This document shows positions 34,916 through 61,706 of a stretch of DNA of 64,000 bases, in pieces. The stretch covers positions 1 through 64,000 of the IMG/VR virus record IMGVR_UViG_3300010373_000004. One strand, written 5' to 3'. The position numbers and the translations under genes were made by a program. Each line of letters starts with the position of its first letter. The first letter of the stretch is position 1. Source of the stretch: a virus. The notes under the pieces were generated by a model. The model saw only the letters and a program-made list of their open reading frames with translations, was not told the origin of the DNA and ran no database searches.

Positions 34916-34920
34916 ATACT
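34893..34920 (+). promoter_or_regulatory. Rightward sigma70-type promoter
   Basis: TTGACA (34893-34898) and TATACT (34915-34920) are 16 bp apart. The start site near 34927 would give a ~480-nt leader before the gene at 35409. It overlaps the leftward promoter, so the two may interfere. Confidence 0.7.
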
Positions 34921-35408
34921 GATTGCTCCGCGCCGCCAGGTAAGTCCTATTAGTATCACTGTAAAAGCTGTAATCTTGACAGGCATGGTATAATTAAAGG
35001 TGAGAGATACTAACATAAAGGGAAGTCCTATTGGTATTCTAGAAATGAAAAATATAAATTTCTGGTTAGAATCATGCTTTTCTGCAAAATCTAATAATAT
35101 TATTTTCAGAAAGGGGAGAAAATTCTTTGCGACACCAGTCCCCTCGGATTGTGGACGGCGCTATTAGGGCGCGGTAACATGGGGTCTTAGGTAATACTAA
35201 CATTTGTTGTTAGGTCGGGATAAACCACGATGTTAGGGGATGCTAATAATTGCGGTGAGGGTACTAATAGATTGGAAGTTAGCGTCCTATTACCGACCAG
35301 GACCTATTTCCTATATGTTTTGGCAGTCGCCTATCACGCGCGATACTTCCCCTGGCGGCAGGAACCGCCACGAAAAAACGCATGCCTAAAAGGCAGGAGG
35401 GACTATCA
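34921..35408. promoter_or_regulatory. Divergent control region, long leader
   Basis: About 490 nt with no credible gene. It holds ATACTAACAT twice (35007-35016, 35194-35203), AAGTCCTATT twice (near 34943 and 35024), and a second TATAAT (34989) preceded by TGG. AT-rich hairpins include TTTCTG/CAGAAA near 35075-35110. Two hairpins stand before the next gene: TGGCGG/CCGCCA (35353-35370) and TGCCT/AGGCA (35383-35395), the latter next to the ribosome site. This looks like a regulated leader; an origin or packaging signal is also possible. Confidence 0.5.
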
Positions 35409-40429: not shown

Positions 40430-41227
40430 ATGTTCTCAAACCTTCCTAAGACTCAAAAGACCGCGCAGGAGCAAGTGCTGGATGCTATGGCAGTCAGTCG
40501 TTTTGTTTTCCATCTGACAGGTTCTCGCTTTTTCGGAACTAATCGTGAGGACAGCGATTACGATTTCTTTGTCGAGGATGATCATTATTCGCCTTTCGTT
40601 GGAAATGTTCGCTCATGGCTCATAAGTGAGGCTTTCTATTTGATGGATAAGAGTGATTATCTGTCAACTGTTCAGGGCATCAATGATGTTTACCAGCATG
40701 TTAGTGCGAACATTCAGGTCCAGGTTGTTCAGGATGCTACTAAGAAGCAGCGCATTCAAGACGGGATCAAGAACAGTCCTGAATGCATGAACGTCATTAA
40801 GCAGTGTGACAAGTCTCGCAATAAGGGTTTGTGGGAAGCTCTTTACATCATGGATGCTTTCAAGCCTGCTCCAAAGACTCCCGTAAACAAGATTCTCATG
40901 ATCAAGAATGTTCGTGAGTTGTCTGGATGCGGATTGAAGGAGGCCAAGGATTTCGTTGAGGGAGTTTTGATTCCCAATTTCAATGGAACGCCTGCAACAA
41001 TGGAAGTAAACGCAACAAAGAGCGTTGTTCCTGTTGTGAATTCTTCTCCACTTCCAGTTATCGCATGTGGTCGTTGCGGACTGTCACTAACGCGGTTCGC
41101 CTGTTATCGACAAGATTACCGAAACAATAAGCCGCTGTGCTTTAATTGCTGGATTAATGAACGGACATATGTTGATCCGATCTTTGTTTCAGACTGGATA
41201 AGCACACGCAACACAACCACCGTTTAG
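40430..41227 (+). CDS. Nucleotidyltransferase fused to L7/L12-like segment and zinc site
   Basis: Three parts are visible in 265 residues. LTGSRFFGTNREDSDYDFF (29-47) is the nucleotidyltransferase motif GS...DxD with D43 and D45. NKILMIKNVRELSGCGLKEAKDFVEG (153-178) closely matches the C-terminal domain of ribosomal protein L7/L12, the part that binds translation factors. CGRC and CFNC (213-240) make a zinc ribbon. A tRNA- or ribosome-directed transferase is suggested. Hairpins with a shared tail flank the gene. Confidence 0.7.
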   Translation: MFSNLPKTQKTAQEQVLDAMAVSRFVFHLTGSRFFGTNREDSDYDFFVEDDHYSPFVGNVRSWLISEAFYLMDKSDYLSTVQGINDVYQHVSANIQVQVVQDATKKQRIQDGIKNSPECMNVIKQCDKSRNKGLWEALYIMDAFKPAPKTPVNKILMIKNVRELSGCGLKEAKDFVEGVLIPNFNGTPATMEVNATKSVVPVVNSSPLPVIACGRCGLSLTRFACYRQDYRNNKPLCFNCWINERTYVDPIFVSDWISTRNTTTV

Positions 41228-41236
41228 CAGAGTGGG

Positions 41237-41266
41237 CCGAGAGTTTAATCTCTCGGTTTAATGCGG
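41237..41266 (+). other. Hairpin with GTTTAATGCGG tail, copy 2
   Basis: CCGAGAG-tttaat-CTCTCGG (7 bp) is followed at once by GTTTAATGCGG (41256-41266), as in the copy at 40345. The stems differ but the tail is identical, so the tail and the stem-plus-tail layout appear to be what is conserved. Confidence 0.6.
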
Positions 41267-41314
41267 TAAGGTCGTCACAAGCCCGACCTAAATACAAACG
41301 CATTAGGAGTATTT

Positions 41315-43646: not shown

Positions 43647-43802
43647 ATGACAGCTATAATTTCAGTAGTTATCTGCCTTGCAGGAAGCATTACTCTTTTG
43701 TGGGTTTTGCCTTTCATGATTGGCTACACAATAAATGAAGTTCGTAATTCCTTTATGTGTGGTCTTACAGGTATTCCCTCGTCGAGGCGTAAGCATCGGT
43801 AA
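43647..43802 (+). CDS. Small membrane protein
   Basis: Fifty-one residues starting one base after the previous stop. A hydrophobic helix (SVVICLAGSITLLWVLPFMI) and a basic tail (SSRRKHR). The stop lies in the first GGTAA of the structured region that follows. Confidence 0.45.
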   Translation: MTAIISVVICLAGSITLLWVLPFMIGYTINEVRNSFMCGLTGIPSSRRKHR

Positions 43803-43951
43803 ATAAAGGTAAACATTTGTCAGTAGGTGCTAGAGGGCCGTTGGTCGAGCGTGATCAGCCCTCTAGACCACTACTAAATCCTGTTTGCAAAAGTAAAACA
43901 GTATCCAGTAGTGGTATTCCCTCCCTCCCTAGGACCGTAAGGATCGGTCAC

Positions 43952-44056
43952 TATCGGTAAGAGAGAGGTAAATATGAAGGTAAACATCTGTAAGTATCGG
44001 TTAATTACATTTGCTTACACATGTTTACCCTCATATTTACCGTTCTTTTACCGATA
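43952..44056. repeat. 43-nt imperfect inverted repeat with GGTAA iterons
   Basis: Arms 43952-43994 and 44014-44056 match at 38 of 43 positions around a 19-nt centre. Each arm has three GGTAA units at 11-12 bp intervals (one helical turn), so bound protein would line one DNA face. Confidence 0.8.
44015..44029 (+). repeat. 15-bp repeat TTACACATGTTTACC, copy 1
   Basis: Part of the right arm of the inverted repeat. Its exact second copy is at 44175-44189. Confidence 0.75.
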
Positions 44057-44174
44057 TTTACATCGTATTACGATATATCTCTCGACTCGTTTACGCTTAG
44101 AGGCTATGTATTCCCTCTGATAAGCAGGTGGTTATGTCTACCAGGGTATGTGCTCAGCGGAGGGTAAAATCGTG

Positions 44175-44189
44175 TTACACATGTTTACC
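44175..44189 (+). repeat. 15-bp repeat TTACACATGTTTACC, copy 2
   Basis: Ends 4 bp before the -35 box of the promoter at 44194. That spacing suits an operator for an activator or repressor recognising the same site as the inverted repeat. Confidence 0.75.
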
Positions 44190-44193
44190 TATC

Positions 44194-44223
44194 TTGACAC
44201 ATGCTCTCCAGTCGGCATACCAT
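44194..44223 (+). promoter_or_regulatory. Promoter of the 44.3-45.5 kb gene group
   Basis: TTGACA (44194-44199) and TACCAT (44218-44223) are 18 bp apart. The leader of ~50 nt contains GGAAGTCCTATA, a motif also seen at 35022 and 36689. Confidence 0.5.
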
Positions 44224-44277
44224 AGAGCCGAGGGAGCGCGCCTGGAAGTCCTATAAATAGAAATTGAAAGGGTAGTA

Positions 44278-44442
44278 ATGTCAGTTAGAAAACCAGAAGA
44301 TGAACAACCTTCTTGGATACTTAGAACACGCAGCTTTAAAAGAGCAGTTATGTCAGATGCTCGCCATAATAGGCTGCGCCCACCAGAGAAAAAGAGAATT
44401 TTTGCTAAACATTTTTGTCGAATAGTGTGGTGGAATGATTAA
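44278..44442 (+). CDS. Small basic protein
   Basis: Fifty-four residues, ATG at 44278 after AAAGGG. Arg/Lys-rich helical peptide (RTRSFKRAVMSDARHNRLRPPEKKR). First gene after the structured region; overlaps the next start by 8 nt. Possibly a DNA-binding regulator of that region, but this is inference. Confidence 0.5.
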   Translation: MSVRKPEDEQPSWILRTRSFKRAVMSDARHNRLRPPEKKRIFAKHFCRIVWWND

Positions 44443-45324: not shown

Positions 45325-45541
45325 GGTGCCAGAAATTTGTCCTTGTGCGCCACTTAGAGAAGAAAGACGTTGGGTTAATTCTGACAGTAACACAGGACTT
45401 CACGGACAAGGTACAGGACATATTGAACTTACTACTGCGCCAGGTTATCATGAATGGAGATATGGTGGATACAAATCAACAATCGCAAGTACATATGATT
45501 GGTTTTACTGTATTTATTGCTTAGAAAGAAAATCAGTGTAA
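45317..45541 (+). CDS. Small Cys-containing protein
   Basis: Seventy-four residues; CPCAP near the start and CIYC near the end could hold one zinc together. Overlaps the preceding stop by 8 nt. Last gene before the promoter at 45553. Confidence 0.45.
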   Translation: MIKVPEICPCAPLREERRWVNSDSNTGLHGQGTGHIELTTAPGYHEWRYGGYKSTIASTYDWFYCIYCLERKSV

Positions 45542-45552
45542 TACCTTTAGTC

Positions 45553-45581
45553 TTGACAAGGTATTCCCTTTGTGGTACAAT
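45553..45581 (+). promoter_or_regulatory. Consensus-like promoter for RHH regulator
   Basis: TTGACA (45553-45558), 17 bp, TACAAT (45576-45581), preceded by TGG as an extended -10. The predicted start site coincides with the ATG at 45589. Confidence 0.8.
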
Positions 45582-45588
45582 AGCGCGC

Positions 45589-45765
45589 ATGGAGAATCTT
45601 ACATTTCCGCTGCGCGCTAAGATTGCTCCGTCAGTAATGAAATCTATAGATGACATTGCAGATGATTTTGGTTTAAATCGTTCGGAAGCAATAAGGGCAG
45701 CTTTAAAACTGTTTATCAAACTAAGTGGAAAGCTTACACAGGAGCAAATACAAAAGTTGATTTGA
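45589..45765 (+). CDS. Ribbon-helix-helix (CopG-like) regulator
   Basis: The 58-residue protein LTFPLRAKIAPSVMKSIDD followed by FGLNRSEAIRAALKLFI is the strand-helix-helix pattern of CopG/Arc repressors. These dimers bind short operators. The ATG lies 8 nt after the -10 box, so the transcript is probably leaderless; no Shine-Dalgarno exists. As the first gene after the promoter it could be autoregulated. Confidence 0.75.
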   Translation: MENLTFPLRAKIAPSVMKSIDDIADDFGLNRSEAIRAALKLFIKLSGKLTQEQIQKLI

Positions 45766-45766
45766 A

Positions 45767-45982
45767 ATGGCCATTAATTTCTCAGGAATTACAATGAAGT
45801 GGTCAGGTAATTTCGTAGAATTCTACACTAGATTGTTTTGTCCTGAGTGTACGAAAATAACTCCGTGTGCATTCAGAAGTAACAAGTCATTTTTAGGAAT
45901 AGAATGTCTAGAATGTAAATATATTGTTATGTCTACAGTAATGAACGGAGAGCGCATCGTGAAGATGTTTCAAGATACGTGA
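45767..45982 (+). CDS. Small zinc-ribbon protein
   Basis: Seventy-one residues with CPEC (25-28) and CLEC (47-50), a transcription-factor-like zinc ribbon. One base separates it from the previous stop and it overlaps RNase H by 4 nt. Function unknown. Confidence 0.55.
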   Translation: MAINFSGITMKWSGNFVEFYTRLFCPECTKITPCAFRSNKSFLGIECLECKYIVMSTVMNGERIVKMFQDT

Positions 45983-46440
45983 ACCTAAAAGTATTTAGTG
46001 ACGGCGGCTCTAAGGGAAATCCAGGGCCGTCTGGTTACGGTGTGGTTATTCGTGATGATGCGAAAAATACGCTCTGCACATTCGGTAATTTTATTGGCAT
46101 TACAGGCAATAATATTGCTGAATATGTAGGAGCTATTATGGCATTACGAAAAGCTGCTGAATTTGAAGCTGAATCTGTCCAGCTTTTCTCAGATTCACAA
46201 TTAGTTGTTTGCCAAGTCAATGGTTTGTACCGCGTGCATCCAAAGTACGCGCCATACTATAGGATGCTTCTTGAATTGAAAGAGAAGTTGGCAGCTACTG
46301 TTGATTGGATACCAAGAGGCGCTAATCAATTAGCAGATAAGGAATGTGATTATGCCATTCGAAAACGAGTTACGTGTGACCCAAGAGGAATCCCAAACGA
46401 TCCTTTCTCAAATCCGTGCATCGTTTCATTCGCGGCCTAG
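45979..46440 (+). CDS. Ribonuclease H (type HI-like)
   Basis: All catalytic residues are visible: SDGGSKGNPG (D8), NNIAEY (E48), FSDSQLV (D72) and ANQLADKECDYA (D120 or D124). It cleaves the RNA of RNA:DNA hybrids, for instance primers during phage DNA replication. 153 residues from the GTG at 45979 is a normal length; GTG overlaps the previous stop (GTGA). The DNA ligase at 46965 fits the same primer-processing role. Confidence 0.85.
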   Translation: MNLKVFSDGGSKGNPGPSGYGVVIRDDAKNTLCTFGNFIGITGNNIAEYVGAIMALRKAAEFEAESVQLFSDSQLVVCQVNGLYRVHPKYAPYYRMLLELKEKLAATVDWIPRGANQLADKECDYAIRKRVTCDPRGIPNDPFSNPCIVSFAA

Positions 46441-46786: not shown

Positions 46787-47008
46787 ATGATACTCATTGA
46801 TGATCTGCCATTGTTGGAGCACAATGAGGTAAAAGAATACACAGATGATAAGGCTGTGGTTCTTAAATACATGCTTATTCGTCAACAACACCCAATGTGG
46901 CATGTTGCAGTCGTGCCGTTTGAACCTGAAAACAAATTCAACTGCCAAAAGATAGGAACCAATCGTGCCAACAGAGTTACCCAAGCTAGCGACACTCCAG
47001 CCGGATAA
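46787..47008 (+). CDS. Hypothetical 73-residue protein
   Basis: ATG at 46787 (a TTG lies 9 nt upstream). Mixed sequence with VVLKYMLIRQQHPMWHVAVVPF in the middle. Overlaps the ligase start by 44 nt in another frame. No motif. Confidence 0.45.
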   Translation: MILIDDLPLLEHNEVKEYTDDKAVVLKYMLIRQQHPMWHVAVVPFEPENKFNCQKIGTNRANRVTQASDTPAG

Positions 47009-47846
47009 AAATGATCCGACTTTTCCAACAAATCATGAGGCTTATATCTATGAGCCAAAGTTTGATGGAATCAGAACGCTAGTTTACTTCAACGGTGAAG
47101 ATATTAAACTGGTTTCTAGAACAGAAAAGAATGTAGATGTATCAATTAAGTTTAGAAATGCAGTCACCGAACAGCTTAAGAATACAGGCTGCCGCAACGC
47201 GATCATTGATTGCGAACTTATTGCCATTGATACTGAACACCTTACCGGAAATTTCGAGGCTTTACAAAATCGAAAGCGCTATCCTTGTATCCTACAATTA
47301 CGGGCATTTGATGTGCTCTATTACAACGGAGTGGATATTAGAGGGTACTCTACAATGGAGCGGAAAAAGGTTCTCGCAGCGAAATTCGACATTAAAAGTG
47401 TCCCATTCAAATTGGTCCCATTCGCTGACTCAGTTGATGGACTCCCTGTCTACTCCAACATTGAAGGACATGTTGCTAAGCAACGTAAAGCTAAATATGA
47501 GAGTGGACGACAGCGAACTTGGGTCAAAATTAAACCCTTCGAAACAGAGATTGTACGAGTCACTGGATACATCGAGGGTTTGGGAAAGTTCGAGAATAAT
47601 GTCGGCGCGTTAAACATCGAATGGATCATCGTTGATCCAAAAACTAAAGAAATCTCAACAAAAGATGCAGGTCAAGTAGGGAGTTTTCACATTGATGATT
47701 CTAAGCGCAAAGAAATCTGGGATAAGATTCAACTCATGGGCGAAAAGTTTAAACCATTTTTCGCAGAAGTTTATTATCTTAGAAAGACAGCAGCAGGCAA
47801 GATTTATCACGGAGTATTTCTCAGAGAAGTAGAATTAGATGTTTAA
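46965..47846 (+). CDS. ATP-dependent DNA ligase
   Basis: EPKFDGIR (motif I, K32 adenylation site), CELI (motif III-type FDVLYYNG), EGHVAK (motif IV) and TWVKIK (motif V) identify the nucleotidyltransferase core of DNA ligases; an OB domain follows (about 190-293). At 293 residues it is a minimal form like T7 or Chlorella virus ligase. The GTG start follows AGGA by 8 nt. It seals nicks during replication and repair. Confidence 0.85.
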   Translation: MPTELPKLATLQPDKNDPTFPTNHEAYIYEPKFDGIRTLVYFNGEDIKLVSRTEKNVDVSIKFRNAVTEQLKNTGCRNAIIDCELIAIDTEHLTGNFEALQNRKRYPCILQLRAFDVLYYNGVDIRGYSTMERKKVLAAKFDIKSVPFKLVPFADSVDGLPVYSNIEGHVAKQRKAKYESGRQRTWVKIKPFETEIVRVTGYIEGLGKFENNVGALNIEWIIVDPKTKEISTKDAGQVGSFHIDDSKRKEIWDKIQLMGEKFKPFFAEVYYLRKTAAGKIYHGVFLREVELDV

Positions 47847-50048: not shown

Positions 50049-50123
50049 TGGGGATTAAGATCAGTCAGGTAGATGGCTCGGCCTGGAACCGAGAGGTCGC
50101 GAGTTCGAATCTCGCATCCCCAA
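50049..50123 (+). tRNA. tRNA-Pro (UGG)
   Basis: Acceptor TGGGGAT/ATCCCCA, anticodon stem CTCGG/CCGAG with loop CCTGGAA, and T arm GCGAG TTCGAAT CTCGC. First of the array. No encoded CCA. Confidence 0.85.
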
Positions 50124-50157
50124 CAACTACTTCTATTTTAGAATAAAGAGAAAGATA

Positions 50158-50313
50158 ATGAAGCGATTTGAATTGACTGGATGGAAGGGAGCTATTGCAT
50201 CTTGGTATGTGATTTTGTCCCTTGTTTTTGGAGTTGCTACAGAAGTTTATGTAGTTGCAACTCATGCTGTTCCAGCAGCAAATGCAGTTCATAGCCTAGT
50301 GGCCAAGCGGTAA
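50158..50313 (+). CDS. Small single-pass membrane protein within tRNA cluster
   Basis: Fifty-one residues, ATG at 50158 after AAAGA. A hydrophobic helix (AIASWYVILSLVFGVATEVYVV) occupies the middle. Its last 7 codons lie inside the tRNA-Asn gene, so its transcript can be cut by tRNA processing. Function unknown. Confidence 0.45.
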   Translation: MKRFELTGWKGAIASWYVILSLVFGVATEVYVVATHAVPAANAVHSLVAKR

Positions 50314-50367
50314 GGCAGGAGACTGTTAATCTTCTATGCGTAGGTTCGAATCCTACCTGGGCTGCCA
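50293..50367 (+). tRNA. tRNA-Asn (GUU)
   Basis: Acceptor AGCCTAG/CTGGGCT, anticodon loop CTGTTAA, T loop TTCGAAT. The DNA encodes the terminal CCA (50365-50367), unlike most tRNAs here. Confidence 0.85.
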
Positions 50368-50369
50368 AT

Positions 50370-50444
50370 CCTCTGTTAGTCGAACGGTTTAAGATACCGC
50401 CCTGTCAAGGCGTGTGATTACGGGTTCAAATCCCGTACAGAGGG
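50370..50444 (+). tRNA. tRNA-Asp (GUC)
   Basis: Acceptor CCTCTGT/ACAGAGG, loop CTGTCAA, T arm ACGGG TTCAAAT CCCGT. One mismatch at the base of the anticodon stem. Confidence 0.85.
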
Positions 50445-50499
50445 CTGTCGTTAAACTTTAAGATTTGTGGAAGTTCATCGTTATAAACAAATCACTGAT

Positions 50500-50570
50500 G
50501 GCGCATTCATCTAATGGCAGGATAAGTGACTTTCAATCATTTCGCAGGGGTTCGATCCCCCTATGCGCTA
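50500..50570 (+). tRNA. tRNA-Glu (UUC)
   Basis: Acceptor GGCGCAT/ATGCGCT (one G-U), anticodon loop CTTTCAA, T arm AGGGG TTCGATC CCCCT. Confidence 0.85.
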
Positions 50571-50572
50571 CT

Positions 50573-50662
50573 CCGAACCGCCGGTCTAGAACGGTCATAG
50601 TGTATGGTATTGCACGTTAGCTGCGCGAGCTAAAAGTAGAGTTCGAATCTCTTGGAACGGAA
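50573..50662 (+). tRNA. Degenerate tRNA, possibly Tyr-like (class II)
   Basis: A good T arm (AGAG TTCGAAT CTCT), a long variable arm (TTAGCT/AGCTAA) and a GTGTA/TGCAC stem enclosing TGGTAT are visible, the layout of class II tRNAs with a GTA-like core. The acceptor strands do not pair well (CCGAACC with GGAACGG) and the anticodon loop has only 6 nt. Probably decayed. It would supply the missing tyrosine tRNA. Confidence 0.35.
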
Positions 50663-50666
50663 ACAT

Positions 50667-50737
50667 GCCCTGATAGTTAAATGGTATAACAGTAGTCTTG
50701 TAAACTTCTGTTCTCAGTTCGATTCTGAGTCGGGGCT
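50667..50737 (+). tRNA. tRNA-Thr (UGU)
   Basis: Acceptor GCCCTGA/TCGGGGC, loop CTTGTAA, T arm CTCAG TTCGATT CTGAG. Confidence 0.85.
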
Positions 50738-50739
50738 CG

Positions 50740-50937
50740 ATGTTAATAGTAACATTTCACAATCAAGGTATGGATATAAACCTTCCACCAGATGAACAGT
50801 TTTGCGACTATAACGTAGAAGTTATGGTTACTACTAGTCCTACATCTGTAAAAACTATCTATAAAGGTAAAGTTAAGAAACACTATCGAAAAGATGGCTG
50901 GAAGAAATTGCTAGAGTTGGCAACAAAGCAACTCTGA
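50740..50937 (+). CDS. Hypothetical 65-residue protein within tRNA cluster
   Basis: ATG three bases after tRNA-Thr, ending 2 bases before tRNA-Val. Beta-type N-terminus and a basic helical end (KKHYRKDGWKKLLELATKQ). No ribosome site seen. Translation may follow tRNA processing. Confidence 0.45.
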   Translation: MLIVTFHNQGMDINLPPDEQFCDYNVEVMVTTSPTSVKTIYKGKVKKHYRKDGWKKLLELATKQL

Positions 50938-50939
50938 AC

Positions 50940-51012
50940 GCTCCTGTGGTATAAAGGTCAATTATACTTGGTCTACACCCAAGTGATTCTAGTTCGAATC
51001 TAGACGGGAGTA
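50940..51012 (+). tRNA. tRNA-Val (UAC)
   Basis: Acceptor GCTCCTG/CGGGAGT, stem CTTGG/CCAAG, loop TCTACAC. Position 33 is C instead of U, which is unusual. T arm TCTAG TTCGAAT CTAGA. Confidence 0.8.
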
Positions 51013-51077
51013 CAGTGACTCAGCCATCATGCACTTGATAATTTCTATCACAGTGGAACATTATAAGGATAACCATA

Positions 51078-51162
51078 GGAAATATGCTGGAGTGGTTTAA
51101 CAGGCACGCCTGCTAAGCGTGTGACCGTAACTGGTCCCTGAGTTCGAATCTCAGTATTTCCG
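51078..51162 (+). tRNA. tRNA-Ser (GCU)
   Basis: Acceptor GGAAATA/TATTTCC, loop CTGCTAA, long variable arm (GACC/GGTC), T arm CTGAG TTCGAAT CTCAG. Confidence 0.9.
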
Positions 51163-51270
51163 CAGAGTCTTAGGGTTCGTGGTATAGAGGGCAGACTCTT
51201 TCAAAACACAGCATACTTACTGATAGTTTTAAGTTCGCGTGAGTTCTATCATTAAAAACTCTACGAAAAT

Positions 51271-51357
51271 GGAATTGTGGCCGAGTGGTTTAAGGCAATA
51301 GTCTTGAAAACTATCGACCGCGCGAGCGGTCCTAGGGTTCGAATCCCTACAATTCCT
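51271..51357 (+). tRNA. tRNA-Ser (UGA)
   Basis: Acceptor GGAATTG/CAATTCC, loop CTTGAAA, variable arm CCGC/GCGG, T loop TTCGAAT. Confidence 0.9.
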
Positions 51358-51374
51358 CTTGACAAATAAGTCAT

Positions 51375-51445
51375 GTGGTGCTAAGATAATGGTAGTCCCG
51401 CAGTTTGTGACACTGCGCGTTCCCGTTCGAACCGGGAGCATCACT
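51375..51445 (+). tRNA. tRNA-His (GUG)
   Basis: Acceptor GTGGTGC/GCATCAC, stem GCAGT/ACTGC, loop TTGTGAC, T arm TCCCG TTCGAAC CGGGA. The usual extra 5' G is not encoded. Confidence 0.85.
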
Positions 51446-51462
51446 CTTTTAAGGTTTATTGA

Positions 51463-51711
51463 ATGTCTAACGCATGGGATTTAACAACATCTGGTGCCTT
51501 AACCAGATTTAATAGTAATGTGAATACAAAAAGCACTTATGGACCGTCAACAGCGAGTATCGGTCCCAACAGTCTCAGTGCTTCTGGATATGTTGATCCT
51601 ACTATTGTAACAGCGAGTTTAGTTGAACCTTCTCAATATACTAGTCCGGCGGATAACGTCGCCAAAAAGTCATACCCCGGTTTCGAAATCGACGGAGTTA
51701 ATTACATTTAG
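51463..51711 (+). CDS. Hypothetical Ser/Thr-rich protein
   Basis: Eighty-two residues, ATG at 51463 after AAGG. Polar, Ser/Thr/Asn/Pro-rich with no Cys. Unlike the surrounding basic proteins it looks virion-like. Function unknown. Confidence 0.5.
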   Translation: MSNAWDLTTSGALTRFNSNVNTKSTYGPSTASIGPNSLSASGYVDPTIVTASLVEPSQYTSPADNVAKKSYPGFEIDGVNYI

Positions 51712-51952
51712 AAGTTGGTCGTATTGTTGGTCCGACCATCCTCTTGGTAAAGTTCATATAGCTTGGTCGGATGATAGAAGCATTGCTTGTAAGAATATTT
51801 ATTTTGTTCCGCAACATTTTAGAGTTGGGGTTCTAGGATATCTTCCTATGGAAAAGCAAAAGAATCTTTGCAAGCATTGCGCCAAGGCTCTTGAATTAGA
51901 AAGAAGGAATATGTATGCCCCTTCAAACAGGCACTTCACAGAAAGCAATTAG
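51623..51952 (+). CDS. Probable small CxxC protein, start uncertain
   Basis: Open frame with convincing sequence only from ~51715 on ([15 protein letters not shown] ... [16 protein letters not shown]). A TTG at 51623 is the only listed start and overlaps the previous gene; the real start may be unconventional. CKHC plus an upstream cysteine suggest zinc. Confidence 0.35.
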
Positions 51953-52052
51953 TAGTAATATAGCGACAGAAGTCAAGGCAGGAAAGCCACAAAAGCAAGC
52001 TGTGGCAATTGCAATGAGTAAAGCTGGTAAGAGCACTTCTAAAAAGAAGTAA
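51915..52052 (+). CDS. Conserved small phage protein
   Basis: A 45-residue basic protein containing [20 protein letters not shown] recognise this 'GKPxKQAVAIAxSxAG' peptide from many phage genomes, where its function is unknown. The ATG at 51915 overlaps the preceding gene. Confidence 0.6.
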
Positions 52053-52062
52053 CTTACCTCAT

Positions 52063-52133
52063 GCGCCTGTGATTAAATGGTATAATGGGTGCCTTCCAAG
52101 CATCATTTGAGAGTTCGATTCTCTCCAGACGCA
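52063..52133 (+). tRNA. tRNA-Gly (UCC)
   Basis: Acceptor GCGCCTG/CAGACGC (one C-A mismatch), loop CTTCCAA, T arm GAGAG TTCGATT CTCTC. Confidence 0.85.
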
Positions 52134-52237
52134 CAATGGTTTACTAGTGACAAACAACGCTTTGCAATGATTAGGAACTAGTCGTCTAAGTAGCCTGTGA
52201 GTCGCGCATAAAGACGTTAATTGTGGAGACTCTTAAA

Positions 52238-52320
52238 GCCGCTGTGGTGGAACAGTAGACACGCTTGCCTTAGAAGCAAGTATTCTTATGAATGTACGAG
52301 TGCGAATCTTGTCAGCGGTA
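52238..52320 (+). tRNA. tRNA-Leu (UAG)
   Basis: Acceptor GCCGCTG/CAGCGGT, loop CTTAGAA, variable arm ATTC/GAAT, T loop TGCGAAT (unusual G). Confidence 0.85.
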
Positions 52321-52321
52321 C

Positions 52322-52594
52322 ATGAGAACTATTAAAGATTCTGAGAGAGATAGAAGGAACGCTGATCTTAAAAGAAATGTAGTTGATGCTTTTAAACTAG
52401 CTAAAGGTTGCATTGATTGTGGGTACAAGGAAAATGCAGCAGCACTAGAATTTGATCACTTACCAGGCTTTAGGAAAAATGCTACAGTAGCTTCTCTAAT
52501 GTATAGAAGTCTTAAAGTAATTGTTGAAGAAATAAAGAAATGTGAAGTTGTATGCGCTAATTGTCATGCAATAAGAACGTATAATAGACGATAA
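52322..52594 (+). CDS. HNH endonuclease (tRNA-cluster type)
   Basis: About 90 residues from the ATG at 52322, one base past tRNA-Leu. GCIDCGY (first zinc pair), LEFDHL (catalytic His), and CEVVCANCHAIRTYNRR (second half) form an HNH fold common in phage homing nucleases. Its position right next to tRNA genes is typical of elements inserting at tRNA arrays. Confidence 0.75.
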   Translation: MRTIKDSERDRRNADLKRNVVDAFKLAKGCIDCGYKENAAALEFDHLPGFRKNATVASLMYRSLKVIVEEIKKCEVVCANCHAIRTYNRR

Positions 52595-52595
52595 T

Positions 52596-52678
52596 GCTTC
52601 CTTGGTGGAACGGTAGACACCCTGGACTTAAAATCCAGTGTTCGAAAGGACGTGTCGGTTCGAATCCGACAGGAAGTA
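52596..52678 (+). tRNA. tRNA-Leu (UAA)
   Basis: Acceptor GCTTCCT/AGGAAGT, stem CTGGA/TCCAG, loop CTTAAAA, variable arm, T arm TCGG TTCGAAT CCGA. Confidence 0.9.
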
Positions 52679-52708
52679 CGGGTTTAATAAACCTAAATTA
52701 AAATTATA

Positions 52709-52930
52709 ATGGAGGCCCATGTAGTGGCTAAGTTATGTTCAAGCAACCTAGAAAGTTGCGAATTTGATTCCGAAACTGGAGTCTTAGTAATAGATTTTGT
52801 TGCAGGTTCTACTTATAAGTATAAGAATGTTCCTGCTAACATTTATCACGGCTTATTAGCTGCTGAGTCTCATGGAAAATTCTTCCATGAAAATATTAGG
52901 GATAAGTTCCCTTATCATAGAGTAGCTTAG
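52709..52930 (+). CDS. KTSC-domain protein
   Basis: Seventy-three residues: SSNLESCEFDSETGVLVIDF, then GSTYKYKNVPANIYHGLLAAESHGKFF. This is the KTSC domain pattern. KTSC proteins are small and often found in phages and beside lysyl-tRNA synthetases; exact function unknown, possibly RNA related. ATG follows GGAGG-like bases. Confidence 0.7.
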   Translation: MEAHVVAKLCSSNLESCEFDSETGVLVIDFVAGSTYKYKNVPANIYHGLLAAESHGKFFHENIRDKFPYHRVA

Positions 52931-52942
52931 TCTACTCTTAGT

Positions 52943-53016
52943 GCTTCAATAGCCAAGTGATCTAAGGCGCTTGTCTGCAAAACAAGTATTCGTCGGTTTG
53001 AATCCGACTTGAAGCT
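52943..53016 (+). tRNA. tRNA-Cys (GCA)
   Basis: Acceptor GCTTCAA/TTGAAGC, stem CTTGT/ACAAG, loop CTGCAAA, T loop TTTGAAT. Confidence 0.9.
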
Positions 53017-53090
53017 CATTGGTTTGTTAGTTTTCCAAAAGACACATAGTCTCTTTGTGATTTACACGGTCTAGAAAAACTAACACAAAT

Positions 53091-53163
53091 GCCTCATTGG
53101 TCTAATGGACAGGGCGGCAGCCTTCTAAGCTGTTCGGTACAGGTTCGAATCCTGTATGAGGTA
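53091..53163 (+). tRNA. tRNA-Arg (UCU)
   Basis: Acceptor GCCTCAT/ATGAGGT, stem CAGC/GCTG, loop CTTCTAA, T arm ACAGG TTCGAAT CCTGT. Confidence 0.9.
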
Positions 53164-53193
53164 TATTAGCTAATCAAGGACTCAATTAGGTCA

Positions 53194-53583
53194 ATGAACA
53201 GCAATGAGCAAAAAGCTTTGCAATTAGGAATGCCTTTTGGTACAGCCTGTAATAGATTAAGAAAAAATATACTTTTTAAACTTCTAGTAGATTTTAAATT
53301 AAATGTATGTTTTCATTGTAATAGAGATATTACTAATGTAGACGAACTGAGTATTGAACACAAACAACCTTGGTTTAAAACAAATGCTGATTTATTTTGG
53401 GATTTAGATAATATAGCATTTAGTCACTACTCATGTAATTCAGGTGCTGCAAATCATGACAATCAGAGAATACTTAAAACCCATTGTATAAATGGGCATG
53501 AATATACAGAAGCAAATACGTCTAGGGTACTAATTCGCGGTAAAGTAACTCGTCGATGTAAAAAGTGTTTAAGTAATCGTTAA
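53194..53583 (+). CDS. HNH endonuclease with C-terminal zinc motif
   Basis: The 129-residue protein has CFHCN, LSIEHKQPW and a HYSCN element (HNH core), then CINGHEYTEANT and RRCKKC, the small C-terminal zinc motif often appended to phage HNH enzymes. Located between tRNA-Arg and a membrane gene. Likely a homing nuclease. Confidence 0.75.
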   Translation: MNSNEQKALQLGMPFGTACNRLRKNILFKLLVDFKLNVCFHCNRDITNVDELSIEHKQPWFKTNADLFWDLDNIAFSHYSCNSGAANHDNQRILKTHCINGHEYTEANTSRVLIRGKVTRRCKKCLSNR

Positions 53584-53598
53584 ATTATCGTATGACAC

Positions 53599-53826
53599 AT
53601 GACAGAAAAGCAATTTAAAGATAATAGTATTGTCTGGTGGAGTTGGGTCTTTCTTTGGTTAATACTGGAAGGATTGGGATTCTCACGGAAAACTCCGTGG
53701 GCGCCACTTACTGAGTATGTTTGGGCCATCGAAGATAGAAATCACTTGGCGCAGTACGGTTTCTTAGTTCTATTTGCGGCTCTGTTAGTCCACTTTGTCG
53801 GTAGGTGGACTGGACACAACGATTAA
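53599..53826 (+). CDS. Small membrane protein
   Basis: Seventy-five residues with two hydrophobic segments (WWSWVFLWLILEGLGF ~13-28 and FLVLFAALLVHFVG ~55-68). It ends 2 bases before tRNA-Ile. Function unknown. Confidence 0.5.
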   Translation: MTEKQFKDNSIVWWSWVFLWLILEGLGFSRKTPWAPLTEYVWAIEDRNHLAQYGFLVLFAALLVHFVGRWTGHND

Positions 53827-53828
53827 AT

Positions 53829-53902
53829 GGTCCTGTGGTGTACGGGTGCGTGCATAAGTGTCTTATAAACACCAGGTTCTAGTTCGACTCTAGGCAGGAC
53901 TA
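53829..53902 (+). tRNA. tRNA-Ile (UAU)
   Basis: Acceptor GGTCCTG/CAGGACT, stem GTGT/ACAC, loop CTTATAA, T arm TCTAG TTCGACT CTAGG. An AUA-reading tRNA with UAU, which most bacteria lack. Confidence 0.85.
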
Positions 53903-53907
53903 CGTAT

Positions 53908-53980
53908 GCTCCGATAGCTCAGATGGTAGAGCGCATGTCTGAAAAACATGAGGTCGTCGGATCGATACCGACTCGGAGCA
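53908..53980 (+). tRNA. tRNA-Phe (GAA)
   Basis: Acceptor GCTCCGA/TCGGAGC, stem CATGT/ACATG, loop CTGAAAA, T loop ATCGATA, which departs from the usual TTCGAAT. Confidence 0.9.
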
Positions 53981-53986
53981 CTTATT

Positions 53987-54058
53987 GCTCGCTTACGCTA
54001 ATGGTTGGCGACAGTTCTGATAAAGCTGTGTGAGGTAGTCCGATTCTACCAGCGAGTA
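53987..54058 (+). tRNA. tRNA-Ile (GAU)
   Basis: Acceptor GCTCGCT/AGCGAGT, stem CAGTT/AGCTG, loop CTGATAA, T arm GGTAG TCCGATT CTACC. Confidence 0.85.
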
Positions 54059-54075
54059 CAAAGCTAAAATAGCAC

Positions 54076-54104
54076 TTGACATCGTTCCTCCAGTATGGTA
54101 TTAT
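54076..54104 (+). promoter_or_regulatory. Internal promoter of the tRNA cluster
   Basis: TTGACA (54076-54081), 17 bp, TATTAT (54099-54104), TGG before the -10. It would drive tRNA-Lys onwards. Confidence 0.8.
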
Positions 54105-54118
54105 AGATAGGTCGTTGA

Positions 54119-54190
54119 GCGCCTCTGACGTAACGGTAGCGTAGCGGACTTTTAATCCGACAAGTAAGAGTTCGAATCTCTTGGGGCGTA
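54119..54190 (+). tRNA. tRNA-Lys (UUU)
   Basis: Acceptor GCGCCTC/GGGGCGT, stem CGGA/TCCG, loop CTTTTAA, T arm AAGAG TTCGAAT CTCTT. Confidence 0.9.
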
Positions 54191-54199
54191 CAAAAAGAA

Positions 54200-54433
54200 A
54201 TGCTAAAAACAAAAGAAGCAGTAAAAAGAACAGCTACCTTCAAAGCTTTTGAAATTGAAGGTCTTTGGTATCGTGAAACCTGTAATTTCTGTGGTAAGGA
54301 AATAGATCACTTCTATAAATTAGAGTTTGACGATACATATCCAATAAAGGAAAATCAGGATGGTCCTAATAGACCATACATTTATCTTTGTTTGGAACAT
54401 TACGAACGGTTAACACATGCTCCAGTAGCATAA
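54200..54433 (+). CDS. Small CxxC protein overlapping tRNA-Arg
   Basis: Seventy-seven residues with CNFCGKEIDH and a later CLEH, one zinc site. The last five codons (to 54433) lie inside the tRNA-Arg gene (54419). ATG follows tRNA-Lys by 9 nt. Function unknown. Confidence 0.5.
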   Translation: MLKTKEAVKRTATFKAFEIEGLWYRETCNFCGKEIDHFYKLEFDDTYPIKENQDGPNRPYIYLCLEHYERLTHAPVA

Positions 54434-54491
54434 TGGAAAGTGTCTCTGCCTTCGAAGCAGGTGGGTACGGGTTCGAATCCTGTCTGGAGTA
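54419..54491 (+). tRNA. tRNA-Arg (UCG)
   Basis: Acceptor GCTCCAG/CTGGAGT, stem TCTGC/GCAGG, loop CTTCGAA, T arm ACGGG TTCGAAT CCTGT. Confidence 0.9.
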
Positions 54492-54535
54492 CGCAAATGG
54501 TTACTCAATAGACTCTCGTTTGATGGAATTAGAAT

Positions 54536-54606
54536 GGGCCATTAAGTTAATGGGAAACTTCCTGCTTTGCACGCAGGGTTTGAGAGTTCGATTCTCTCAT
54601 GGTCCA
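54536..54606 (+). tRNA. tRNA-Ala (UGC)
   Basis: Acceptor GGGCCAT/ATGGTCC, stem CCTGC/GCAGG, loop TTTGCAC, T arm GAGAG TTCGATT CTCTC. The Ala-type G3-U70 pair is present. Confidence 0.9.
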
Positions 54607-54607
54607 C

Positions 54608-54680
54608 TGCGGGATAGTGTAATAGCAACATGCCAGCCTCATAAGCTGTGCGACTATGGGTGCAAATCCCATTTCCGCTA
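54608..54680 (+). tRNA. tRNA-Met-like (CAU)
   Basis: Loop CTCATAA on stem CAGC/GCTG, T arm ATGGG TGCAAAT CCCAT, acceptor TGCGGGA with TTCCGCT (a T-T mismatch at 1-72 as in initiators). The GGG anticodon stem of initiators is missing. It might also be a lysidine tRNA-Ile2. Confidence 0.75.
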
Positions 54681-54818
54681 CTGAGTTGTCAGAGTCTTTA
54701 AAACTGTCTGTCAGTTACCAATCTGACATTAATTAAAATTGGGTGCGCGAATAGAATTAACGAGGCGTCGCTACACGCCTACACAGCGAGTAATGTCGGT
54801 GAGCTATTCCGGTAAAAT
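54681..54818 (+). other. Inter-tRNA spacer with hairpins
   Basis: About 140 nt between tRNA-Met and tRNA-Gln. It has a stem AGGCGT/ACGCCT near 54762-54779 and CTGTCAG/CTGACA elements. No intact tRNA is seen; decayed tRNAs are possible. Confidence 0.35.
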
Positions 54819-54889
54819 TGCCGAGTGTTGTAATGGTAGCAAAAGTGACTTTGAATCATTTAGTCTGGGTTCGAAACCTAGCTCGGCAG
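54819..54889 (+). tRNA. tRNA-Gln (UUG)
   Basis: Acceptor TGCCGAG/CTCGGCA, stem AGTGA/TCATT, loop CTTTGAA, T arm CTGGG TTCGAAA CCTAG. Confidence 0.85.
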
Positions 54890-55059
54890 CTACACAGTAG
54901 TCGAATAATAGACAGCCTGACAAAGGTAAATGTGCAAGAATGAGAGAATCTTGCCTGTGGTAGGAAGCCAGTAATCCTTATTCCAAACTGGTTGTACATA
55001 AATGAATTGGTGCCTTAACCTTTAGGTAAAAGCTTAATGTCTAGAACGCCAATTCTTAT
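54890..55059 (+). other. Inter-tRNA spacer with hairpins
   Basis: About 170 nt. It contains GCAAGA/TCTTGC near 54938-54958, CCAG/CTGG, and GAATTGG/CCAATTC at 55005-55055 enclosing about 37 nt. The last resembles a tRNA acceptor but no complete tRNA folds. Possibly a small RNA or relics. Confidence 0.35.
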
Positions 55060-55132
55060 TACCGAATGGTGTAATAGGTAACACAACTGTCTCTGAAACA
55101 GTAGAGTAGTGGTTCGAAGCCACTTTCGGTAG
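55060..55132 (+). tRNA. tRNA-Gln (CUG)
   Basis: Acceptor TACCGAA/TTCGGTA, stem ACTGT/ACAGT, loop CTCTGAA, T arm AGTGG TTCGAAG CCACT. Confidence 0.9.
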
Positions 55133-55196
55133 CCGCGCCCTCAAACATGCCAAACAGTTCACTAGCTCTGTATAAAAAGCTAGTTTTATTTTGTCT

Positions 55197-56198
55197 ATGA
55201 GTTTATCACTTCTTTCTTTTAATAATCAAGTAGCTTCCGGCGCTGTAGTTAACGCCGTTAAGCTTGCACGACCTAGAGCCATACTTGTTATGGACGTAAA
55301 TAATAAGCCGTATCTTGAAGATTTGCGTGCAGCTAATCCTAATATGTGGGTCATTGCGCGTAATTATCAATTTGACGGAAACTATGATGGTCCAGCAGCG
55401 TATCAAACTGGACAGCAACATGGTGAAGCAGCACTAAATATTGAAGCAAATGGATTTAAGTTTGATCGCTGGACGAGTATAAATGAGCCAATATCTGATT
55501 GGGAACCTAATTGGTCTTGGTATGATAGTTATGCTGCTGGGTTTTATGATACTGTGGGTGACAGGGCGTTGGCGTTCAATACTGCAACGGGTAACTTTCC
55601 TAAAGTATCGTCTCCTGGACAATTTGTAGAGGATGACTTTGACCGTTTTACCCAAATTCAACAACGTTACCACAAATTTGCATTTCATGCCTACGGTCAT
55701 CCTAGATTTGATGCCAATTCGGTTCCCTGGTGGATCGGTCGTTACCAGCATTTTATTCATGATCCGCTGGCGGAGATTCACCTTACTGAGGTCGGATATC
55801 ATACGGTTAGTGGCAATCCCACTCCAGATAAGGGTTACAAATACGACGGTGTAACCGAAGATGATTACTGGAACCAAATGGTTTGGCTTGATGATTTTCA
55901 TATCGCCGATCCTAGGGTTGAGGATTTATGTGTGTTTATCGTTGGAGGGAACTCTGGCTGGTCATCTTTTGAAATACTAGGAACATCAATCATTCAGCGA
56001 CTTGCTGACAGGAATAATGAATTGGATCAAACAATTGGGCAGCAGTTGGCTGCATTTCAAACACAATTTCAAACACAAAATGATATGTTAGGTCATGGTC
56101 TGTCTGATTTTGTAAAGGCTAATCCTAGTCTAGAAACACAAGAGCTAAAGACATGGTTGAAGGCAATGTCACCAGATGCTCCGTGGGCGCAATTTTAA
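55197..56198 (+). CDS. Clan GH-A-like glycosidase
   Basis: Start at ATG 55197 (TTG 6 nt upstream). The 333-residue protein has WTSINEP (E97, acid/base signature of clan GH-A) and IHLTEVGYH (E198, nucleophile signature), spaced ~100 residues as expected for a TIM barrel. FHAYGHP lies between. The substrate could be a host polysaccharide or capsule. The C-terminal ~60 residues are helical and Gln-rich. Odd location: after tRNAs, among early genes, not with the virion genes. Confidence 0.65.
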   Translation: MSLSLLSFNNQVASGAVVNAVKLARPRAILVMDVNNKPYLEDLRAANPNMWVIARNYQFDGNYDGPAAYQTGQQHGEAALNIEANGFKFDRWTSINEPISDWEPNWSWYDSYAAGFYDTVGDRALAFNTATGNFPKVSSPGQFVEDDFDRFTQIQQRYHKFAFHAYGHPRFDANSVPWWIGRYQHFIHDPLAEIHLTEVGYHTVSGNPTPDKGYKYDGVTEDDYWNQMVWLDDFHIADPRVEDLCVFIVGGNSGWSSFEILGTSIIQRLADRNNELDQTIGQQLAAFQTQFQTQNDMLGHGLSDFVKANPSLETQELKTWLKAMSPDAPWAQF

Positions 56199-56453
56199 AT
56201 GCTACCTGAGAATGAAAGAGAGCAGATAAAACGAGCAGTCATAGGGTTTGCTGTTGATTTAACTAGAGCACTTCAAGAGTTTAAGTTTAGTTCTATGGCT
56301 TCTGATGAAGCTGAGGCTGTTTGGAATCTTATTGGTGCAACTTCAAATAATTACCTAGAAGTCATCGCTAGACCTAAGAAGCAAATCCATGCCAGCAAGC
56401 AAACGAAGTCTGCTGGTGAAACATTAAATACAAATACAGTAGTGACAGAATAA
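56199..56453 (+). CDS. Hypothetical 84-residue protein
   Basis: Starts right at the previous stop. Helical first half (EREQIKRAVIGFAVDLTRALQEF), polar Thr/Ser/Lys tail. Could be an accessory of the glycosidase. No motif. Confidence 0.5.
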   Translation: MLPENEREQIKRAVIGFAVDLTRALQEFKFSSMASDEAEAVWNLIGATSNNYLEVIARPKKQIHASKQTKSAGETLNTNTVVTE

Positions 56454-56939
56454 ATGAAAGTATACGTAGCTGGCTCATGGGATGCCAGACAAACATGCAG
56501 AGAAATCGCTAACCATGTAGCTAGCAAAGGACACGTTGTTCTTTCTAACTGGTTGTATTGGGAACCACCAGAGGACGTTCTTGCTAATTCTAAGAAGCTT
56601 AATATGCTTATTAAGAAGATGGACTGCGACGGCGTTAGAAATGCTGATGCAATTATCGTCTTTACAGAAGTACCTTCAACTAAGCATGGTTTCTATTTTG
56701 AAACAGGAATGGCGGAAGGCTGGAACGCTCTAGTTCGTTACATGGGTAGCCAGATGGCGAATCTAGAGAAAATCATCTATATGATAGGTAAGCAGCCAGA
56801 AGATTTGTGTGCTTTCTTGGCAGGCTATAGAACCTATCCAACGCTGGACGATTTCTATCATCATTGGCCTAAGATGGGTGATTCCAATGAGATTGATCTG
56901 ACAGCTATTACTCCACTTATTGGTCCTAGTGATAACTAG
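56454..56939 (+). CDS. Nucleoside 2-deoxyribosyltransferase-like protein
   Basis: The 161-residue protein opens KVYVAGSWDARQTC and has NADAIIVFTEVPSTKHGFYFETGMAEGWN, a pattern of the nucleoside 2-deoxyribosyltransferase fold (DNA glycosyl or sugar-swap enzymes; Glu in the FETG segment). It could salvage or modify deoxynucleotides. No neighbour confirms the substrate. Confidence 0.6.
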   Translation: MKVYVAGSWDARQTCREIANHVASKGHVVLSNWLYWEPPEDVLANSKKLNMLIKKMDCDGVRNADAIIVFTEVPSTKHGFYFETGMAEGWNALVRYMGSQMANLEKIIYMIGKQPEDLCAFLAGYRTYPTLDDFYHHWPKMGDSNEIDLTAITPLIGPSDN

Positions 56940-56946
56940 GACTTTA

Positions 56947-57018
56947 CCCGACAAGATGTTAAGGCGGCATACACGACTCTTAATCGTAGAAGTGAGGGTT
57001 CGAATCCCTCTGTCGGGA
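56947..57018 (+). tRNA. tRNA-Lys (CUU)
   Basis: Acceptor CCCGACA/TGTCGGG, loop CTCTTAA, T arm GAGGG TTCGAAT CCCTC. One mismatch at the base of the anticodon stem. Confidence 0.85.
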
Positions 57019-57025
57019 CGATATT

Positions 57026-57256
57026 ATGGCTAATAAAAGAATATCACATGACTGGACTGGACAACTTGGTGGTGTTTTCAAGTGTTCAGTTTGCAGAACA
57101 ACATTAACAGATAAAACACTAAACAGTGGTTGTCAAGGTACACGGCATCGGAGTGATAATGAACATGTTTCATTTGGAGAGCCGTTAAGAAATATAGGAC
57201 AGATAATGCAAGCCTTGTCTCCAGAAACAGTAAAAGCACTTAAAAATGCAGCGTAA
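57026..57256 (+). CDS. Small CxxC protein
   Basis: Seventy-six residues; CSVC (20-23) with a later Cys and His residues (GCQGTRH) form one zinc site. Overlaps the kinase gene by 11 nt. Function unknown. Confidence 0.5.
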   Translation: MANKRISHDWTGQLGGVFKCSVCRTTLTDKTLNSGCQGTRHRSDNEHVSFGEPLRNIGQIMQALSPETVKALKNAA

Positions 57257-58133
57257 TCAAAAGATTATATTCATGCGAGGACTGCCAGGTTCTGGTAAGT
57301 CCACATGGGCAAAAGCAAAGGTACAAGAAGAACCAAACATCTGGTATCGTATCAATCGAGATACGCTGCGAGAAATGATTGTAGAACCAAAGCTATCCAT
57401 TCAAGAGAAGAAGGTAGCGAAGTGTCGTGACGCTCTAATTGTTCATGCAATTCAAGATGGTCAAAATGTAATCATTGATGATACTAATCTTGATATAGAT
57501 TCTATTCAGGCTCATGTAAAAGACTTGTTGGTGAATACTGTCCATACATTTACGGTGGATTTTGAAGTTCAAGATTTTACATGGGTTCCACTGGAGGAAT
57601 GTATAAAGCGTGATAAGAATAGACGTGGTGAGAGTGTTGGTGAGCACGTTATCAGGCGCATGCATCACCAGTATCTTGCTCCAAAACAAGATAAGCCTGC
57701 ATATAATCCTTCACTGCCGTGGGCTATTATCTGTGATCTGGATGGAACCTTAGCTAAGATTATAGATAGAAGTCCTTATGAAGCAAAGTATGAGACTGAC
57801 GTTCCACGGGAATCACTTACTAGTTTATTGCGAGCGCATTACTTCCACTATAACGATAAGATTGTATTTGTTTCGGCACGCGAAGATCAGTACAGAGAAA
57901 AGACTATTGACTGGCTACGGAATACAGCTAATTTTTGGGACCTCGCCTTCGATCTTATCATGCGAAAGACAGAGGACTTTCGTAACGATGCAATCGTCAA
58001 AGAAGAAATATACGAAAATCAAATAAAGCCTAATTACAATGTTAGGTTTGTGTTAGATGACAGGGATAGAGTTGTACAAATGTGGAGAGATAAGGGACTA
58101 GATTGTCTCCAGGTTGATTATGGCGAATTTTAA
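57246..58133 (+). CDS. pnk: Polynucleotide kinase/3'-phosphatase
   Basis: The N-terminal kinase has the P-loop GLPGSGKST (12-20) and the RR segment NRRGESVGEHVIRRMHHQY; the C-terminal half is a HAD phosphatase with DLDGTLAK (D164, D166), VSAR and VLDDRD. This is the T4 Pnkp domain order. It rebuilds 5'-phosphate and 3'-OH ends on cut RNA or DNA. Next to RNA ligase at 58320 and the tRNA genes it forms a tRNA-repair pair. Confidence 0.88.
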   Translation: MQRNQKIIFMRGLPGSGKSTWAKAKVQEEPNIWYRINRDTLREMIVEPKLSIQEKKVAKCRDALIVHAIQDGQNVIIDDTNLDIDSIQAHVKDLLVNTVHTFTVDFEVQDFTWVPLEECIKRDKNRRGESVGEHVIRRMHHQYLAPKQDKPAYNPSLPWAIICDLDGTLAKIIDRSPYEAKYETDVPRESLTSLLRAHYFHYNDKIVFVSAREDQYREKTIDWLRNTANFWDLAFDLIMRKTEDFRNDAIVKEEIYENQIKPNYNVRFVLDDRDRVVQMWRDKGLDCLQVDYGEF

Positions 58134-59593: not shown

Positions 59594-59609
59594 CAAAAGA
59601 TAAAGAGAT

Positions 59610-60891: not shown

Positions 60892-60898
60892 CACTATT

Positions 60899-60969: not shown

Positions 60970-60971
60970 CG

Positions 60972-61703: not shown

Positions 61704-61706
61704 CAA

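Follow-up and report, generated by a model that had tools for sequence, protein, structure and literature searches.

The described systems closest to the locus presented here are replicons in which a helicase-initiator reads iterons through its C-terminal part. The alpha protein of P4 is a helicase-initiator that does so through a C-terminal winged helix (PMC4234260), and the helicase-initiators SaPI Rep and SCCmec Cch2 use a C-terminal domain (PMC7581432). Deletion of the inverted repeat in SCCmec left Cch2 binding unaffected (PMC7581432). In P4, the type-1 boxes of ori (type-1 repeat TGTTCACC) are spaced 10-11 bp apart in the annotated P4 record, and crr, which the alpha gene adjoins, consists of two 120-bp direct repeats with type-1 boxes in both orientations. 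The origins of SaPIs and PICIs consist of two facing iteron groups around an AT-rich stretch and lie directly 3' of rep/pri. For tailed phages outside the model systems few origins are known, and GC skew is often no guide to them. Overlap of an origin with a promoter is common, and the roles of origin and operator are compatible.

We compared these systems with a repeat block in the early region of a phage from the IMG/VR collection (IMGVR_UViG_3300010373_000004). The record is 83,776 nt long, and the window analyzed is its positions 1-64000. A 123-bp direct repeat is common to both ends of the record (window 1-123 and record end), indicating a genome of approximately 83.65 kb that is circular or circularly permuted; the record thus probably represents a complete assembly of circular type. 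Structural genes run leftward from ~77.8 kb via the genome ends to 34.9 kb, and early and replication genes run rightward from 35.4 to 77.4 kb. The phage encodes a PolA-family polymerase, a primase-helicase, a Sak4-like recombinase and an SSB-like protein, as well as an SNF2 helicase, a PD-(D/E)XK nuclease, an RNase H and a ligase. The block is a gene-free interval of 475 bases that runs exactly from 43803 to 44277, provided that the 51-aa ORF at 43647-43802 is real. A coding function was rejected, as the ORFs overlapping the repeat are at most 48 aa long and were judged spurious. The first gene past the block (44278-44442, +) encodes a basic protein of 54 aa of no recognizable family: PHROGs and Pfam searches gave no match, and a single-sequence structure model was poor (pLDDT 60). 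The RNase H gene (45979-46440, +) and the ligase gene (46965-47846, +) that the earlier note placed downstream of the block are both backed by PHROGs matches (phrog_531, E 2.4e-16 and phrog_114, E 2.8e-28, respectively), the latter as an ATP-dependent DNA ligase. Elsewhere in the rightward region, a 265-aa protein (window 40430-41227, +) matches the C-terminal domain of ribosomal protein L7/L12 (Pfam E 1.3e-7, above cut-off) and, weakly and close to its own N-terminus, a nucleotidyltransferase. A Twister-P5 match (39.7 bits; Rfam gathering score 37.6) lies between two early genes at window 41226-41286 (+), and tRNA genes covering most amino acids (26 by ARAGORN, 25 by Rfam) are found at window 50049-61779 (+).

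The block is dense in short boxes. GGTAA or its complement TTACC occurs 10 times (the first at 43798), where 1.2 would be expected in 475 bp; across 15 second-order Markov genomes, the densest 475-bp window contained 4-6. The earlier note had placed three GGTAA units, one helical turn apart, in each arm of an inverted repeat and two more units at 43798 and 43808. All of these positions are correct (GGTAA at 43956, 43967 and 43979 and TTACC at 44025, 44037 and 44048 in the arms), but the helical phasing is only rough, since the spacing is 10, 11 and 12 bp. Two further units, at 44163 and 44185, had been overlooked. The boxes have the core form TGTTTACC and surround an AT-rich core in groups, some direct and some inverted. 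A longer form, the full box GGTAAACATNTGTNA, had also escaped notice. It has four copies in the whole genome, all of them inside the block, at 43808 (S1, +), 43979 (S2, +), 44029 (S3, -) and 44189 (S4, -). S1 (43808-43823) reads GGTAAACATTTGTCAG, and S4 (44174-44189) reads TTACACATGTTTACC on the + strand and ends 4 bp upstream of a -35 element. This 15-mer is present at 44015-44029 and recurs at 44175-44189, 4 bp before the TTGACA at 44194, as the earlier note had it. The full box is an imperfect dyad, GTAAACATGTGTAA centred on ACATGT.

Part of this arrangement consists of two diverged direct copies of one module, which were not recognized before. Module A (43770-43828, +) contains GGTATTCCCTC, CGTAAGCATC and the GGTAA boxes at 43798 and 43808 and overlaps the end of the 51-aa ORF. 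Module B (43913-44001, +) contains GGTATTCCCTC, CGTAAGGATC, three GGTAA boxes and full box S2. Both share the order GTATTCCCTC, then CGTAAGNATC, then GGTAA boxes, and their local alignment score is 66.8 against a shuffled maximum of 34.7. The box-bearing part of the module also appears in inverted form, as the right arm of the inverted repeat. The block has a trait of iteron origins, namely several copies of one short box that are locally phased and region-specific. No DnaA boxes were found in the block, and across the genome there are seven scattered single matches.

The inverted repeat itself stands as first described: the left arm (43952-43994, +; boxes at 43956, 43967 and 43979) and the right arm (44014-44056, -; S3 at 44014-44029 and boxes at 44037-44041 and 44048-44052, in reverse orientation) are identical at 38 of 43 positions around a 19-nt centre (43995-44013) that is 74% AT. 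It extends to 48 nt at 85% identity (43947-43994/44014-44061). The best other 43-nt inverted repeat in the genome (loop of at most 60) reaches 28 of 43, and the best in each of ten Markov genomes 25-28 of 43. The 43-nt inverted repeat and the box density are real and far beyond chance. The AT content is 68% over the 130 bp from 43951 to 44080; 60-bp windows starting at 43960-44020 are in the 94th-97th percentile for AT, which is not extreme. The two additional hairpins reported ahead of the arms are also present. H1 (43830-43866) has a 9-bp perfect outer stem (CTAGAGGGC/GCCCTCTAG) and an inner stem, seen in both sequence and fold, and H2 (43867-43915), with the outer stem ACCACTACT/AGTAGTGGT, adjoins it and appears as an inverted repeat and in the fold. 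Two palindromes can be added to the earlier description, a perfect one (ATCGTA-T-TACGAT, 44062-44074, seen in sequence and fold) and a second small one at 43933-43949.

A second motif, GTATTCCCT, was likewise absent from the earlier note. It occurs at 43771, 43914 (copy 2, 43914-43922), 44108 (copy 3, 44108-44116) and 45561, always on the + strand, with one further copy in the rest of the genome. These four copies span 1.8 kb. Such clustering, with four copies on one strand inside 2 kb, is seen for no other 9-mer of the genome and for none in 20 second-order Markov genomes. Copy 4 lies in the spacer of the strong promoter (45540-45581, +; TTGACA-17-TACAAT, 11/12 matches, TG before the -10) of a gene for a ribbon-helix-helix (RHH) protein of the CopG/Arc type (45589-45765, +; 58 aa). 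The -35 of this promoter is crossed by an exact 8-bp inverted repeat, AATACCTT-N10-AAGGTATT, of a kind (exact, 8 bp, spacer up to 16) that numbers only 69 in the whole genome. The RHH identity proposed for this product is upheld by a match to Pfam RHH_1 (PF01402) of 23.4 bits against a cut-off of 20.5 and by a CopG-like PHROG. Its structure model has the two expected helices, and the top Foldseek matches, none of them significant, include the RHH proteins CopG and ORF56 and those of the MazE type. The earlier note had named the 44278 product and the RHH protein as candidate binders of the repeats. The RHH domain is real, but the protein appears better matched to GTATTCCCT, which is present in its own promoter, than to GGTAA, and the 44278 product is without a recognizable domain. 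That the RHH protein binds GTATTCCCT is a guess from the position of the motif.

The -35 element next to S4 belongs to a promoter-like site, P44194 (44194-44223, +; TTGACA-18-TACCAT, 10/12 matches), ahead of the 44278 gene. Promoter-like sites are not enriched in the genome scan (31 found against 31.3 expected from shuffles), and what speaks for P44194 is therefore the exact TTGACA and the place where it lies; its -10 (TACCAT) is poor. A consistent, strong phage promoter form with an extended -10, CTTGACA-spacer-TGGTANNATAG, is found at genome positions 45552, 49884, 54075 and 64638 (+). In three other places, all on the + strand, TTGACA is followed after 7 bp by TATAAT or TAAGAT (window 34976 and 39792 and genome 74129; TTGACAGGCATGGTATAAT, TTGACAGCTATGTTAAGAT and TTGACAGCCGTGGTATAAT). 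This gap is too short for a sigma-70 -35/-10 pair, and each of these sites may be an extended -10 promoter overlaid by an operator.

The primase-helicase is a better candidate for binding the GGTAA boxes than the proteins suggested initially. It has Zn_ribbon_DnaG and DUF3987 domains above cut-off and a weak Toprim_2 match below cut-off, and its C-terminus has a weak winged-HTH match (HTH_24, E 0.018) that is below the Pfam cut-off; such an arrangement would be that of P4 alpha-type initiators. In a BLASTP comparison with P4 alpha, the alignment (E 0.005) is limited to the N-terminal primase part and does not establish homology to the origin-binding domain of P4; the C-terminal half shows homology with Curtobacterium phage Nonagon. 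Searches of the genome for integrase, resolvase, Rep3 and phage O families found none of them.

With these features in hand, the locus can be set beside the described systems. The P4 type-1 repeat and the core box TGTTTACC have seven of eight bases in common. This is weak evidence, as many iterons are known and the likeness is that of an 8-mer with one mismatch to one of them. The spacing of the boxes (approximately 10-12 bp) is close to that in P4 ori, both loci have duplicated units with boxes in both orientations, and each genome encodes its own primase-helicase. In contrast to P4, where the repeats of crr are direct, the core here is a 43-nt near-perfect inverted repeat. To our knowledge, P4 has no second motif like GTATTCCCT, and its type-2 repeats differ. 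The two facing box groups around an AT-rich stretch are as in SaPI and PICI origins, but the block does not directly follow a rep/pri gene. The placement of the origin beside the initiator gene, a trait of P4 alpha and PICI Rep replicons, is not found here, with the primase-helicase gene at genome 68,666-70,927 and the block at 43.8-44.3 kb, a distance of ~24 kb. The putative origin of SCCmec, like the block, combines hairpin-forming inverted repeats with short direct repeats, and its Cch2 is a self-loading helicase whose C-terminal domain binds the repeats; whereas the SCCmec inverted repeat is dispensable for this binding, the boxes here are part of the inverted repeat. In iteron plasmids whose origin adjoins an autoregulated promoter, the initiator boxes likewise stand beside a promoter, but no Rep3-type initiator was found in this genome. 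The predicted initiator families differ as well, DUF3987 here as opposed to the Primase_Cterm/D5 or DUF927 types in SaPI/PICI (PMC7581432).

GC skew, proposed in the earlier note as a check on an origin, gave no support at 44 kb. Over the whole 83.7-kb genome the skew turns at ~34.5 kb, at the divergent gene boundary, and there is no turn at 44 kb. Skew at 4-fold sites carried no replication signal, and placing an origin at 44 kb brought no gain (log-likelihood -1725.0, equal to that of strand alone). The suggestion of a replication origin or master operator fits all of the anatomy, but its origin part gains nothing from skew. The skew minimum coincides with a large divergent intergenic region (window 34916-35381) in which AGGNAAGTCCTATTNGTAT is repeated (34938 and 35019). 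This region is the other candidate place for an origin or for the main early and late promoters; as a rival origin it was rejected, because it has no comparable repeats.

Relatives for a comparison of the block were also sought. blastn against phages found no close relative with the block, and scans of viral contigs with the ligase, portal, PolA, major capsid protein (MCP), TerL and primase, and of genome contigs with TerL, found no relative close enough for a conservation comparison. A scan of viral contigs for the facing-box pattern had no matches, and two matches to the GTATTCCCT-promoter pattern were dismissed as chance, being inside structural genes of an unrelated phage. The nearest relatives have identities of at most 30% for TerL, 29-31% for MCP and 26-28% for portal, which points to a deep lineage that lacks close relatives in the collections examined. 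The best TerL, MCP and portal relatives have no homologue of the neighbour genes of the block, and three larger related contigs have no comparable long inverted repeat (best 21/24, in one of them).

We tentatively read the block, at somewhat less than an even chance, as a composite of a replication origin and a promoter-control region, with initiator boxes and putative RHH operators. This reading ranks first among those considered, and what the named rivals leave over falls to options that we do not name. In its favour are the uniqueness and density of the repeats, with two direct modules and an inverted copy; the P4-like layout and the likeness of TGTTTACC to TGTTCACC; and the early-region position ahead of the RNase H and ligase genes, with facing groups of boxes on either side of an AT-rich core. 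There is established precedent for helicase-initiators in which a C-terminal domain recognizes the iterons, and the primase-helicase, with its weak winged-HTH match, is a plausible initiator. The significant clustering of GTATTCCCT and its presence in the RHH promoter, and the failure to find integrase, resolvase, Rep3 and O families, point the same way. Against it count the missing skew turn at 44 kb, the 24 kb between the block and the candidate initiator gene, an AT-rich core that is short and only moderately AT-rich, a winged helix below the Pfam cut-off, and a BLASTP match with P4 alpha confined to the N-terminal primase part.

The main rival gives the block a role in transcription and none in replication. 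Under it, the block would be a multi-site control region of P44194, perhaps also of readthrough from the upstream operon, in which a dimeric phage regulator binds the boxes, forms a DNA loop from S1-S2 to S3-S4 and activates or represses, with the RHH protein on GTATTCCCT. The way S4 abuts the -35 indicates that sites are positioned on the promoter, a -10 as poor as TACCAT is found in activator-dependent promoters, and an imperfect dyad such as that of the full box is typical of dimeric regulators. Control of transcription also fits with the GTATTCCCT copy between the -35 and -10 of the RHH promoter, with the inverted repeat that spans this -35 and with the lack of an origin mark from skew. 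However, the 38/43 near-identity, which runs across the linkers, and the hairpins H1 and H2 exceed what an operator needs. In addition, the full box is found at no other promoter in the genome, so that such a regulator would serve the block alone. We regard a purely transcriptional role as a serious but, on balance, unlikely explanation.

Improbable in our view is that the block acts as structured RNA, in which readthrough from the upstream operon would yield an RNA that folds into a leader or processing element and so determines the 5' end of the downstream mRNA or how stable it is; its stem, with 41 of 48 Watson-Crick pairs, would be a possible RNase III target, next to H1 and H2. The + strand folds at -180.5 kcal/mol (z -10.4), but the - strand folds almost as well (z -9.6), as in any DNA inverted repeat, and the arm differences show no G-U bias on the + strand, where 2 of the 48 pairs are G-U as compared with 1 on the - strand. 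No credible intrinsic terminator was found between the upstream genes and the block, and the Twister-P5 ribozyme candidate lies 2.6 kb upstream among same-strand early genes, both of which would suit an RNA element, whereas Rfam on the block itself returned only chance miRNA models below the gathering score. With their spacing and mixed orientation, the boxes of the block show the pattern of DNA sites: sites in both orientations, 10-12 bp phasing, modules shared with a second motif and an abutted -35 together read as protein-binding DNA. Such DNA might also be a partition (centromere-like) site, with box arrays around a promoter bound by the RHH protein in the manner of ParR, omega or CopG-type proteins. 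RHH centromere binders use arrays of short repeats, and an RHH gene is nearby; yet the main boxes of the block are absent from the RHH promoter, and in a survey not aimed at such genes no ParA/ParM gene was noted beside the RHH gene. The failure to find any integrase family favours a lytic life without partition, and we consider a partition site very improbable.

Returning to the composite of origin and operator, its steps can be proposed as follows. The primase-helicase, as the most likely initiator, would bind the boxes on both sides of the AT-rich core via its C-terminal winged-helix-like domain, at about residues 640-753. It would then open the core, perhaps aided by extrusion of the 43-nt repeat, load itself as helicase and prime DNA synthesis. 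Through box S4 the same initiator could modulate how the 44278 operon is transcribed towards the RNase H and ligase genes. By way of GTATTCCCT, the RHH protein would repress its own promoter, and on the three copies in the block it might time or damp the same region.

These predictions, drawn from sequence, describe a distinct repeat block, in a phage without close relatives, for which a candidate initiator and a further candidate regulator can be named. Initiator boxes inside a 43-nt inverted repeat and duplicated modules, interleaved with RHH operators, could be a new origin design, which we think doubtful and give a modest chance. If true, two phage proteins would gate the start of replication and early-to-middle transcription at one site, and the two-motif reading would show how a phage may tie the start of replication to the timing of its genes.
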